64,000 nt of DNA from positions 1 through 64,000 of the forward strand of contig JAMLIT010000007.1 in NCBI GenBank assembly GCA_023954035.1, in the 5' to 3' direction. The stretch's first letter is position 1. Every line of letters begins with the position of its first letter. A program made the translations under genes and the position numbers. Shown here piece after piece: positions 4,365 to 44,605 of the stretch. The DNA is from Burkholderiaceae bacterium. GTDB taxonomy: Bacteria > Pseudomonadota > Gammaproteobacteria > Burkholderiales > Burkholderiaceae_C. Below the pieces are notes generated by a model, which was given only the letters and a program-made list of their open reading frames with translations, was not told the DNA's origin and did no database searches.

Positions 4365-5711
4365 ATGAATGCTATTAAAAAGATAGCTGCTCGCGCTTGT
4401 GCAATAAGCGCTGGAGTGGTTTTTTACTCACAATCTGCCTGGGCCCTGCTGCCCATTGAGCATTGGACCGAGCCCAGCGGCGCGCAGGTCTGGCTGGTGC
4501 AAAGCCCGGCGCTGCCCATGGTGGATGTGCAGATTGATTTTGACGCCGGCAGCCGGCGCGACCCGGCGGCTCAGGCCGGGCTGGCCAGTGCCGCAGCCAC
4601 CATGATTACCAAGGGTGTTCGCGCCGTGGGTGATGCCCCGGCCATCGACGAGAACGCTTTGGGCGAAGCCTGGGCCGACCTGGGGGCCTCGTTCGCGGCC
4701 GGCGCCGACAGCGACGCATTGAGCTTTTCGCTGCGCTCGCTGACTGATCCGCCCCTGCTGGCCCGCGCGGCGCAACTGGCTTCGCGCCAGATGGGTCAGC
4801 CTGCCTGGCCCGAGGAGATCTGGCAGCGCGAGCGTGCCCGCTGGAGTGCAGCGATTCGCGAAGCCGACACGCGCCCCGGCACCGTGGCCGGCAAGGCGTT
4901 TGCCAAAGCGGTTTACGGTTCGCACCCCTATGGCCAGCGGGCCACAGCCGAAACGCTTGCGCAGATCAACGTGGCCGACCTGCGTGCCTACGCCGAGCGC
5001 AATGTGCAAGCCTGCCGCGCCAGGGTGGCCATCGTGGGCGCCGTCTCGCGCCCGCAGGCCCAGACCTTGGTGAGCACCCTGTTGGCGCACCTTCCGAGTG
5101 GCGCGCCCTGCACAGCCCCGCCGCCGGTGCCCGCAGTACAGCCCTTGGCAAAGGCCGAGGAAATCAAGATTCCCTTTCAGTCGGCGCAGGCCTATGTGCT
5201 GATTGGCCAGCCCGGCTTCAAACGCAGCGACCCGGATTTTCTGGCACTGCTGGTGGGCAACCACATTCTGGGCGGTGGGGGCTTCACCTCGCGCCTGACC
5301 GAAGAGGTGCGCGAGAAGCGCGGCCTGAGCTACAGCGTCTACAGCCAGTTCGCCCCCGGCCTGAATGCCGGCGCGTTTGCCATCAGTCTGCAGACGCGTC
5401 CCGACCAGGCGGCCGAGGCACTGAAAGTTTCGCGCGCAGTGCTGGAGCGCTTTGTGGCTGAAGGCCCCACCGAAGCGGAACTGCAAGCCGCCAAAGACAA
5501 CCTGATTGGCGGATTCGCGCTGCGCATCGACAGCAACCGCAAACTGCTGGGCAACGTGGTGAACATCGCCACCAATGGCTTGCCGCTCGACTATCTGGAG
5601 GGTTGGACCGACCGCGTGGCCGCGCTCACCGTGGCCGACGTGCGCGCCGCCATGGCGCGCAAGCTGAGCCCTGAGCGCATGGTGACCGTGGTGCTGGGAG
5701 CGCAGCCTTGA
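4365..5711 (+). CDS. M16 family peptidase homologue lacking the zinc motif
   Basis: A 448-residue partner of the preceding M16 peptidase. It keeps the M16 fold, including the C-terminal half motif GGGGFTSRLTEEVREKRGLSY near 300, where Arg and Tyr bind substrate in other M16 enzymes. The first domain reads AGLASAAATMITKG where HxxEH should be, so zinc ligands are missing and it is probably the non-catalytic subunit of a heterodimer. The signal peptide (MNAIKKIAARACAIS through SAWA, cleavage near 27) is encoded almost entirely by a copy of the interspersed repeat at 4372-4430. It overlaps the next gene, rsmD, by 4 bp if that gene starts at TTG. Confidence 0.88.
   Translation: MNAIKKIAARACAISAGVVFYSQSAWALLPIEHWTEPSGAQVWLVQSPALPMVDVQIDFDAGSRRDPAAQAGLASAAATMITKGVRAVGDAPAIDENALGEAWADLGASFAAGADSDALSFSLRSLTDPPLLARAAQLASRQMGQPAWPEEIWQRERARWSAAIREADTRPGTVAGKAFAKAVYGSHPYGQRATAETLAQINVADLRAYAERNVQACRARVAIVGAVSRPQAQTLVSTLLAHLPSGAPCTAPPPVPAVQPLAKAEEIKIPFQSAQAYVLIGQPGFKRSDPDFLALLVGNHILGGGGFTSRLTEEVREKRGLSYSVYSQFAPGLNAGAFAISLQTRPDQAAEALKVSRAVLERFVAEGPTEAELQAAKDNLIGGFALRIDSNRKLLGNVVNIATNGLPLDYLEGWTDRVAALTVADVRAAMARKLSPERMVTVVLGAQP
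4372..4430 (+). repeat. Interspersed palindromic repeat, copy A, inside the M16 signal peptide
   Basis: The stretch contains GATAGCTGCTCGCGCTTGTG followed by CAATAAGCGCTGGAG and a T-rich end. It matches the element found between genes elsewhere in this window: an ATAGCTG left flank, AGCGCTT / TAAGCGCT arms and a GGAGG-T-rich right flank. Here it is translated as residues 3-22 of the second M16 protein. Confidence 0.85.
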
Positions 5712-6337
5712 AGCGCCCCGCAGCGGGCGCCGTGCGCGCCAAGCCGGCCAGCGCACCGGGCAGCATGCGTACCAAGCTCGCCGCCGCACCCGGCGAGGTG
5801 CGCATCATTGGTGGTCAATGGAAGCGCACGCGCCTGCCGGTGGCCAAGCTCGAAGGGCTGCGCCCCACGCCCGACCGGGTGCGGGAAACGCTGTTCAACT
5901 GGCTCGGTCAGGATCTCACTGGCTGGCGCTGCCTGGACGCCTTTGCCGGGACCGGCGCCCTGGGTTTCGAGGCCGCTTCGCGTGGCGCAGTTGCCGTGCA
6001 GTTGGTGGAAAGCGAACCGTCACTGGTAGCGCAGTTGCACGCATTCCAGCAGCGCTTGCAGGCCGCGGCCGTGCGCGTGCAGCGCGGCGACGGTGTGACG
6101 GCCTTGCGCCAGAGTGCACCTGCCAGCCTGGACCTGGTGCTGATCGATCCGCCATTTGGTAGCCAGCTGTTTCAGCCTGCGCTGCAGGCGGCCGTGCCGG
6201 CACTGGCGACCAAGGGGTTTATCTACCTCGAAGCCCCCGAGCGCTGGAGCGATGAGGCGCTGCAGGCGCTGGGTCTGGTGCTGCACCGCCATCTGCGTGC
6301 CGGTGCCGTGCATGCCCATTTGCTTCAGAAAGAATAG
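5708..6337 (+). CDS. rsmD: 16S rRNA (guanine966-N2)-methyltransferase RsmD
   Basis: RsmD methylates G966 of 16S rRNA on the assembled 30S subunit using S-adenosylmethionine. Family markers are VRIIGGQWKRTRL near residue 31, LRPTPDRVRETLFNWL near 50-65, the SAM-binding CLDAFAGTGALGFEA and the N-methyltransferase motif IDPPFG. Length is 209 residues from a TTG at 5708 overlapping the upstream stop, with GGGAG about 7 bases before it. An ATG at 5765 would give 190 residues, closer to E. coli RsmD; both starts are plausible. The stop codon TAG at 6335-6337 lies inside the left arm of an interspersed repeat. The rsmD-coaD pair is a widespread arrangement. Confidence 0.94.
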   Translation: MKRPAAGAVRAKPASAPGSMRTKLAAAPGEVRIIGGQWKRTRLPVAKLEGLRPTPDRVRETLFNWLGQDLTGWRCLDAFAGTGALGFEAASRGAVAVQLVESEPSLVAQLHAFQQRLQAAAVRVQRGDGVTALRQSAPASLDLVLIDPPFGSQLFQPALQAAVPALATKGFIYLEAPERWSDEALQALGLVLHRHLRAGAVHAHLLQKE

Positions 6338-43109: not shown

Positions 43110-44605
43110 TGCAGGTCCTCCAGGGCCAGCAGGTCCAGGCTGGCCGGCGCGCCGCCTTGGGTTTCCAGCCAGAAGCGCTGCGGCAGGGCGGCGAGCATGG
43201 CGCGGCGGTAGGCGCTGCTGGCGCGCATGTCGGAGATCGGGTCGAACTCGGCCTGCAGCGCGGCGGCTGCGGCCTGCACCGTGGCTTCGCTCCAGGGCTG
43301 GCCGACGAGCGCCGCCTCGGCCGCGCGGGCGCGGGCTGGCGTTGCGGCGACACCGCCGGCACCAATCGATGCGGCGCGGACCTCGCCTTGCTCGATGGTG
43401 AGGTTGAGCACCAGGCACACCGCCGAGATGTCGTCGTCAAAGCGCTTGGACACCTTGTAAGCGCGCAGCCGTTCGTTGGGCCGGGGCAGCGGCACGTGGA
43501 TGCGCAGCAGCAATTCGTCCGGCGCCATCACGTTTTGCCGGTAGCCGGTGTAGAGGTCTTCGAGCGCCAGTTCGCGCGTGCCGCGCACGCTGCCCAGCTC
43601 GACGCGGGCGCGCAGAGCAATCAGGAGCGGCATCGAATCGCCAATCGGCGAGCCGTTGGCCACGTTGCCGCCCAGCGTGCCCGAATTGCGCACCGGCAAG
43701 CCGGCAAAGCGGGCGCCAAAGCGCTCCACCTCGGGCCAGTGCTGCTGCAGCGCACCGAAGGCATCGGCCAGCGTCACGGCGGCGCCAATGTGCAGGTGCC
43801 CGGCAGCGTGCTCGATGCGGCGCAGCTCGGCGGCTGTGGTCACGTCCAGCACCTGGGCAAACTGGCGGTGCAGCTTGGTGACCCACAGGCCCACGTCGGT
43901 GCAGCCGGCCACCACCTGGGCCTGGGGGTGCGCCGCACGCGCCGCCAGCAAGGCCGCTTCTGTAGGCGGAGAAATATAAGTCAAATCAGGCTCTAGCGCT
44001 TGTCTGGTATGCGCAAGCAGCTTCAATTGTTGTAGCAAACGCGTCTCGTTGACGGCCTGCACCGGCAGGTCGCCCATGGCCTGCGCCGCGTCCAGAATCG
44101 GGCGGTAGCCGGTGCAGCGGCACAGGTTGCCCGACAAATCGTGCACCGCATCGGCGCGCGTGATCGCCTCGCCCTGGCAGCAGCGGTTCTGGTACATGGC
44201 AAACAGGCTCATCACAAAACCGGGCGTGCAGAAGCCGCACTGAGAGCCGTGGCACTGCACCATCGCCTCCTGCGCGGGATGCAAACCTGCTGCGGCCGTC
44301 GCATCGCTGGTCTCGATCAGCGGATCTTCGGTCAGGTCTTCCACCGTCCAAAGCGCCATGCCGTCGATGGAATGCGCCAGCCGGATGCAGGCGTTGATGG
44401 CGCGGTAGCGGATGCGCTTGCCGGTGCCCGCACTTTCGATTTCGCCCAGCACCACGGTGCAGGCGCCGCAGTCGCCTTCGCCGCAGCCCTCCTTGGTTCC
44501 GGTGGCGCCCAGGTCGTCCCGCAGCAGCTCCAGCAGCGTGCGCTCGGGTGGTACATTGGCCAGCGCTACAGGCTGACCGCGACGGATGAAGTGCAAAGGG
44601 CGCAT
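43106..44605 (-). CDS. xdhA: Xanthine dehydrogenase iron-sulfur/FAD subunit XdhA
   Basis: 499 residues. The plant-type [2Fe-2S] domain has Cys41, 46, 49 (CGEGDCGAC) and Cys73; the second cluster domain has Cys123, 126 (CGFC) and Cys162, 164 (CRC in GNLCRCTGYRPIL). The CO-dehydrogenase-type FAD domain (about 215-390) has VVAGCTDVGLWVTK and RNSGTLGGNVANGSPIGDS; the C-terminal domain follows. The linker between cluster and FAD domains (about 187-212) is encoded by an interspersed repeat. The ATG at 44605 begins MRPLHFIRRG. Coupled to xdhB by an ATGA overlap; divergent from the LysR gene by 98 bp. Confidence 0.95.
   Translation of the reverse strand: MRPLHFIRRGQPVALANVPPERTLLELLRDDLGATGTKEGCGEGDCGACTVVLGEIESAGTGKRIRYRAINACIRLAHSIDGMALWTVEDLTEDPLIETSDATAAAGLHPAQEAMVQCHGSQCGFCTPGFVMSLFAMYQNRCCQGEAITRADAVHDLSGNLCRCTGYRPILDAAQAMGDLPVQAVNETRLLQQLKLLAHTRQALEPDLTYISPPTEAALLAARAAHPQAQVVAGCTDVGLWVTKLHRQFAQVLDVTTAAELRRIEHAAGHLHIGAAVTLADAFGALQQHWPEVERFGARFAGLPVRNSGTLGGNVANGSPIGDSMPLLIALRARVELGSVRGTRELALEDLYTGYRQNVMAPDELLLRIHVPLPRPNERLRAYKVSKRFDDDISAVCLVLNLTIEQGEVRAASIGAGGVAATPARARAAEAALVGQPWSEATVQAAAAALQAEFDPISDMRASSAYRRAMLAALPQRFWLETQGGAPASLDLLALEDLQ
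43972..44035 (-). repeat. Interspersed palindromic repeat, copy H, inside xdhA
   Basis: AGTCAAATCAGGCTCTAGCG, CTTGTCTGGTATGCGCAAGC and AGCTTCAATTG match the reverse of copy E (CAAATTGGCCTCTAGCGCTT, then ATCTGGTAAGCGCTGGTAGC). It is translated as the linker RLLQQLKLLAHTRQALEPDL of XdhA. Confidence 0.85.

Follow-up and report, generated by a model that had tools for sequence, protein, structure and literature searches.

A dispersed palindromic DNA element of Comamonadaceae is shared in place between species and genera and shows constraint on its core letters

The 64,000-nucleotide stretch analysed here, positions 1 to 64,000 of contig JAMLIT010000007.1 (assembly GCA_023954035.1, Burkholderiaceae bacterium) and hereafter called the window, holds 13 copies of one palindromic DNA element of about 71 bp, each at E <= 9.2e-12 in an nhmmer search for whose profile 11 of these 13 had served as seeds. 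The original prediction described this repeat as translated in frame in the signal peptide of an M16 protein and in linkers of PuuD and XdhA, and all three placements are confirmed. The first copy (4370..4440, + strand, 54.7 bits) covers about codons 2-25 of the gene for an M16-family protein (4365..5711, +; Pfam match to Peptidase_M16_C), whose leader we judge by eye to be a signal peptide. The second (31249..31319, +, 49.9 bits) lies in puuD (30302..31540, +, with the start set by the gene finder; the open reading frame, ORF, runs from 30272), in the linker between Urate_ox_N and a cytochrome c match below the Pfam cut-off (stretches 14-316 and 348-414). The third (43967..44037, −, 52.1 bits) lies in xdhA (43106..44680, −), which is recognised by its Pfam domains Fer2, Fer2_2, FAD_binding_5 and CO_deh_flav_C and by alignment to the solved chain 1jro; here the element occupies the linker between Fer2_2 (to 200) and FAD_binding_5 (from 233).

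The other copies border genes, singly or in pairs and in both orientations. Stop codons are often overlapped by the element, and in the window the TAG in ATAGCT ends three ORFs: 5708-6337 (Cons_hypoth95; copy at 6321..6391, +), 38519-40585 (40569..40639, +; a copy not found in the genus-mate G007 and the relative G021) and 44704-45636 (45620..45690, +). The copy at 16078..16148 (−) separates ORF 15620-16084 (+) from a + strand gene, the probable ATG of which falls within the element (AGCTATGAAAATAATAG), an arrangement kept in G012, G007 and G021. Another at 26375..26445 (+) has a − strand gene on either side and reaches into the 3' end of ORF 26433-27407 (−), and one at 21275..21345 (−) is intergenic. 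A pair fills a convergent gap, with 53177..53247 (−) at the 3' end of ORF 51781-53190 (+) and 53262..53332 (+) adjoining the 3' end of ORF 53336-54841 (−). The last two, 57558..57628 (+) and 60410..60480 (−), each lie between two + strand genes, with stops at 57559 and 60423.

The core letters of the element, AGCT...GCGCTT...AAGCGCT, are set in a quasi-palindromic layout, AGC-N5-GCGCTTA-N5-TAAGCGC-N5-GCY, within A/T-rich flanks. Column statistics come from 94 ungapped copies, orthologous copies included, with a threshold of at least 25 bits for those from the window, G012 and G007. Columns AGC (16-18) and GCG (39-41) are invariant in this set, and CT (3-4), T19, CGC (25-27), T29, AA (37-38), CT (42-43) and C49 are conserved at 90-97%. 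The spacing of the boxes is nearly constant (13/13, 30/31 and 39/41 profile matches are ungapped), and 14 of 19 consensus positions are self-complementary with column 33 as the centre, compared with at most 8 for the other centres tried. An internal box reads ATAG in 69 copies, GTAG in 7, TGAG in 7, AGAG in 6, GAAG in 4 and CTAG in 1.

How abundant is this element? A loose core pattern allowing up to 3 mismatches gave 10 matches in the window, at 9 places since one was counted on both strands, where 0.00 are expected by chance. Across 80 named relatives (1.17 Mb around puuD) the profile found 90 matches at a threshold of 12 bits, compared with 0 when the sequence was reversed. Of 120 genomes of the family, taken one per genus, 10 contain a strict core pattern and 0 a reversed control pattern. 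The own genome holds at least 150 copies at E <= 2.3e-5 (the best 150 of 2135 candidates scored), in a search that was effectively sequence-based as the model used had only 3 base pairs. The density of 13 copies per 64 kb in the window and 31 per 210 kb in G012, if extrapolated, would mean probably several hundred copies per genome.

The original prediction that the repeat is usually intergenic holds: of the copies with at least 25 bits, 22 of 28 in G012 (210 kb) and 28 of 31 in G007 (250 kb) lie in a gap or at the end of a gene. These counts rest on a purpose-built codon-usage gene finder that trims some starts and does not screen for pseudogenes, and they include the M16 copy since the start of that gene is trimmed. 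Among gaps of at least 40 bp, the element is found in 6/18 convergent and 15/77 co-directional gaps of G012 and in 7/18 and 21/93 of G007. Divergent gaps carry it in only 1/27 and 0/25 cases and are thus avoided relative to all other gaps (Fisher p = 0.043 in G012 and 0.0022 in G007). At gene 3' ends the element is oriented against the gene 25 times and with it 13 times, summed over three overlapping, non-independent data sets. Regular spacing of copies along the DNA was considered and rejected (coefficients of variation 0.69 and 0.90).

This placement, intergenic, downstream of genes and rare in divergent gaps, is that of the repetitive extragenic palindromic (REP) class. The element resembles REP/GTAG and CGTC palindromes in lying downstream of genes, in unidirectional or convergent gaps, in TAG stop codons derived from the tags, and in copies within genes, including repair genes (PMC3733652). 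It is unlike REP/GTAG palindromes in that its box is internal and reads ATAG in 69/94 copies, its conserved unit exceeds the 20-40 bp given for REPs (PMC3733652), and its link to a RAYT transposase appears weak. The terminal GTAG tetranucleotide beside the stem that is typical of the class is not seen, as GTAG occurs in 7/94 copies and the box is internal.

Are the copies recent insertions? Sites were compared where both 600-bp flanks aligned close together, counting the element as present at 12 bits or more, in comparison sets that overlap. At this species level, 12 of 13 copies in the window are found at the same site in G007 and 11 of 11 in G012 (2 more are rearranged); window and G021 share 8/9 in one direction and 8/8 in the other, G018 shares 5/5 with the window, and 20 of 21 G012 copies recur in G007 (from 31 copies, 9 without flanks and 1 rearranged). 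The original prediction expected a clean insertion in just these genomes. Instead, at a threshold of 12 bits, the same site carries the element in 24 of 29 M16, 16 of 19 XdhA and 13 of 25 PuuD orthologues, own genome included and other genera among them; the orthologues compared were 29 of 48, 19 of 30 and 25 of 34 matches listed, respectively. Across the family, with one genome per genus and at least 15 bits, it is present in 13/30 M16 and 6/30 XdhA genes, and both sites are common to several genera; PuuD carries it in 25 of 81 loci (the window plus the 80 named loci, at least 15 bits). With the same sites occupied in other species and genera (12/13, 20/21, 8/9), the copies do not appear to be recent insertions, and the original interpretation is mostly wrong and supported only in part.

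A profile scan for further copies added coding cases to those in the window. In G012 the element also lies in MutS (L139:14481-17078; about residues 377-401, domain III), in HemD (about residues 70-93, read antisense to the element) and in TrmJ (about residues 99-122), and the MutS copy recurs in the own genome (G000:C75:72792-72862). Scored by the best match anywhere in the gene, 23/30 MutS and 16/26 TrmJ genes of the genomes compared carry it. The element is thus translated in frame in unrelated proteins, similar to Rickettsia palindromic elements (PMC3733652). The MutS and HemD copies fall within Pfam domains and outside linkers, which runs counter to the proposed preference for linkers or dispensable segments. 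The MutS peptide LLAQSGQALEP resembles LLAHTRQALEP of XdhA, one element frame appearing in two unrelated proteins. A further copy lies near the C-terminal end of an MmeI-like restriction-methylation gene in G012 (L139:10490-13795), where one flank is unmatched in the compared G007 stretch.

If, as originally proposed, a gene that already existed had received a mobile palindrome, tolerated only at places where any sequence does no harm and serving as a source of linkers and signal peptides, its protein should be longer where the element is present. The orthologue alignments fit this in part for PuuD, and show no clean insertion restricted to these genomes. PuuD is the best case, at least partly: linkers are 36-42 residues long in 20 of 25 sequences with an element of at least 15 bits and 27-29 residues in 4/6 Ramlibacter and in Caenimonas, Curvibacter and Paenacidovorax, where none is detected. 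The apparent net gain of some 10 residues or more is set against an element of 20-23 codons, and has exceptions, as linkers without a match are sometimes long (41, 43, 45 and 50 residues). TrmJ is about 28 residues longer at the site than the solved chain 4xbo, although in G002 and G008, which lack the element there, TrmJ still lies within the length range of carriers. Relative to 4es6, HemD has 6 additional residues. Insertion is also in keeping with the sites in PuuD and XdhA, both of which fall in linkers between domains.

By contrast, XdhA, MutS and M16 are length-neutral. Against 1jro, XdhA has gaps of just 1 and 3 residues at the site, and its 60-residue linker segment lies within the range of 56-71 residues seen in 24 relatives that score below 15 bits, exactly 60 being found in 8. 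The 50-residue leader segment of M16 compares with 46-57 residues in 17 relatives below 15 bits; some of the relatives scoring below 15 bits at these two sites may hold decayed copies. The MutS segment is identical in length in 29/30 genomes, with or without the element, the exception being element-free and longer, and its gaps of 2 and 3 residues against 5x9w nearly cancel. The clean in-frame insertion of the Rickettsia type is therefore not what these genes display: unlike those elements, described as gene-interrupting (PMC3733652), this one leaves length unchanged at several sites, and its copies are common to several genera. Together with the occupation of sites across genera and the non-arbitrary core letters described below, the missing gain in length makes the mobile palindrome an improbable explanation.

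Substitution patterns in intergenic copies show nucleotide-level purifying selection on the core letters. For this comparison, 23 core columns were taken as those with at least 0.83 consensus in the 94 copies, leaving out columns 63 and 65. When the 14 intergenic copies that are orthologous between G012 and G007 are compared, the rate of difference is 0.093 in the core columns and 0.268 in the remaining 48, and 0 of 20000 permutations gave so low a core value. The same two genomes differ at 0.319 at fourfold sites, counted in the long genes of the first 60 called, and therefore the non-core columns evolve near the neutral rate. The more diverged pair of window and G021 gives 0.239 for the core versus 0.448 for the rest (6 intergenic copies, 1/20000). 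As the tested genomes had contributed copies to the choice of core columns, the test was rerun with 26 columns derived from 33 copies of the own genome alone, giving 0.110 versus 0.270 (0/20000), and, for the 9 copies outside the region of the window, 0.124 versus 0.299 (3/20000). Gene conversion among copies could in principle keep the core letters without selection, given that many copies per genome share them. Orthologous copies keep their own flanks and partly their own loops, which whole-element conversion would erase, and we regard this mechanism as very unlikely.

The translated copies point in the same direction, and nucleotide-level purifying selection on their core letters is supported, less strongly. 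Within same-genus genomes, none of those compared being dropped, the core label was permuted within codon position. Core columns vary less than the remaining columns of the element in M16 (0/10000, n=22), PuuD (0/10000, n=16), XdhA (38/10000, n=14) and TrmJ (27/10000, n=20), at odds with the suggestion that these segments tolerate arbitrary sequence. Core third positions vary clearly less than third positions elsewhere in the gene for M16 (0.149 versus 0.396) and XdhA (0.141 versus 0.289). The element is read in one frame in M16 and PuuD and in another in XdhA, TrmJ and MutS, so the same core letters fall on different codon positions; in the XdhA frame its usual TAG and TAA are read as AAG and CAA. 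Codon swaps in PuuD (ATA/GAA; GGA/GCA/AAA) leave the core base or its neighbour unchanged, in a comparison made without G014, G015, G017, G019 and G024 for PuuD (weak, absent or truncated) and without G018 for XdhA (short match).

Could the element be a neutral, decaying relic of a REP/REPIN-like family, or of one resembling miniature inverted-repeat transposable elements, once mobilised by a RAYT transposase? Its REP-like layout, with copies at the 3' ends of genes and inside genes and with TAG serving as stop codon (PMC3733652), fits this, as do two sites that differ in presence between species. A Y1_Tnp match is present in 20/20 family genomes searched, equally in those lacking the strict element pattern. 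Degenerate element matches (8.5-22.5 bits) directly follow the RAYT stop in G004, G015, G021 and G121, and a 34-bit match lies upstream of RAYT in G035, whereas the own RAYT (L221, G000:C39) has a match of just 5.9 bits after its stop. Judged by matches at RAYT loci and by the distribution of Y1_Tnp, the link appears weak. Most relatives have a RAYT-like transposase gene, with an ORF carrying the sought motif in 18/21 loci (L221, L237, L238, L241, L243 and L245 among those noted). Many of these loci have termini of their own, GGGGTCAG before and TGTCCC and TCTGACCCC after; in several genomes a degenerate reverse element copy stands between the RAYT stop codon and TGTCCC, and in G032 just three bases do. 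The element-bearing G064 has 20 Y1_Tnp matches, several of equal score, probably an IS200-like expansion. Such separate termini, the two absences with imprecise borders and no visible target duplication, and core columns that evolve about three times slower than the others speak against a neutral relic, which appears unlikely.

A hairpin acting on the transcript, as terminator or 3'-end stabiliser, would explain why copies are found at the 3' ends of genes, why runs of A and T flank them and why there is an inner stem, GCGCTTA/TAAGCGC, that pairs in 84.6% of cells across the 13 copies. However, the loop length is nearly fixed, both orientations occur, copies lie within genes, and covariation of the stem beyond shuffles was seen in neither the 13 nor the 94 copies, a test in which the near-invariant columns leave little power. 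A hairpin with compensatory changes was thus rejected, as was an intrinsic terminator, which is marked by a G+C stem with a T run directly after it: only 1 of 12 copies within 1-60000, the one at 21275..21345, was flagged as terminator-like. No Rfam 15 family matched the window at gathering score, which sets aside known RNA families. Taken together, these results make an RNA hairpin improbable. A DNA uptake word was rejected as well, TAAGCGCT occurring inside and outside elements 18 and 0 times in G012 (210 kb), 28 and 1 times in G007 (250 kb) and 7 and 0 times in the window. AGCGCT occurs 134 times outside elements in G012, near its Markov expectation of 157.9, on which an uptake-word or restriction-site effect was rejected.

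What, then, is the element? Our tentative preference, held at a little short of an even chance, is an ancient, dispersed REP-like DNA family of Comamonadaceae whose motif is under purifying selection, perhaps as a protein-binding site at gene ends. Copies are inherited in place over long time, and the core would most likely be recognised, as double-stranded DNA, by a host protein that acts at gene 3' ends. Free orientation, the absence of covariation and a PuuD copy that retains the core letters although its stem is broken lead us to prefer such a protein site over a role in RNA. The host protein could, for example, separate neighbouring transcription units or handle supercoiling, as BIME/REP sites of E. 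coli, the nearest analogy, are thought to do. Coding copies would be cases in which the motif coincides with a reading frame and the protein puts up with it, and the putative signal peptide of M16 is now supplied by the motif.

Several observations weigh against this interpretation. No binding protein is known, and none was sought. Profile-picked copies are biased toward conserved ones, and information content is only weakly symmetric about the dyad (r = 0.25), with several other centres equally good. Core constraint in MutS is non-significant (1154/10000, n=24), and core third positions are about equal to the rest of the gene in PuuD (0.253 versus 0.293), TrmJ (0.375 versus 0.355) and MutS (0.325 versus 0.341), so constraint there is relative to very variable surroundings. 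From G007 to G012 only 21 of 27 copies are shared, and 5 weak G007 copies (15-28 bits) are undetected in G012, at 10 bits or less and with nearly equal site length. Copies also come and go: the one at 40569 is absent in G007 and G021, and that at 101540 of G007 (L225:1540-1610) is absent in G012. Finally, some same-genus genomes are without several copies, as none was detected at the sites examined in G002, G005 and G008 (the MutS site in each of them, that of M16 in G002 and G005, and that of TrmJ in G002 and G008). The element family may have been lost in these three genomes, which would thereby offer a natural test of its role.

Part of the element has been reported before. For Acidovorax ebreus TPSY, the pair GCTTAT(N)5AAGCG was listed as a potential novel motif with 114 copies, 5 in genes, 2 overlapping and 107 intergenic (44 convergent, 4 divergent and 59 co-oriented; Tong et al, 2017, PMC5217627). 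The letters of this pair correspond to columns 26-31 and 37-41, at the centre of the element, with the same gap layout, and we infer from them that the pair is the element core. That report gives the 11-letter pair alone, with no name, function, full element, cross-species or coding analysis (PMC5217627). A Polaromonas pair in the same table, ATAGCT(N)22CAAAAG, may or may not be related to the element (PMC5217627). The Betaproteobacterial repeat element (BRE) is likewise mostly intergenic, with some coding copies, and also occurs in Comamonadaceae; it is about 90 bp long, has 69% GC in Bordetella and is often in tandem with variable number, unlike the single or paired element with its A/T-rich flanks (PMC3110155). 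Identity with Bordetella BRE was rejected on its described length, GC content and tandem layout, the comparison being by description (PMC3110155). For other REP families, 3'-end location, tag-derived stop codons and intragenic copies are already described (PMC3733652). A literature search with the core letters and for repeats of these bacteria, with most subscription journals outside its reach, found no fuller description; as far as it goes, the full element, its in-place inheritance across genera and the nucleotide-level constraint on its core are new.

A more specific proposal, possible though doubtful, is that the element is the site of an undescribed DNA-binding system of Comamonadaceae that marks gene ends throughout the chromosome and constrains protein sequence, with working sites in the frames of M16, PuuD, XdhA and TrmJ and an M16 signal peptide made from the motif. 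As several coding sites lack a gain in length, genes may even have acquired the motif by replacement or point change and not by insertion. REPs are often viewed as mobile and nearly neutral, whereas here constraint on single letters is readable across species and genera. That it can be read in non-coding as well as coding copies, and in two frames, makes a host role of such repeats directly testable, and the signal peptide and the tRNA methyltransferase provide clear cases of a dispersed DNA motif translated within a protein.

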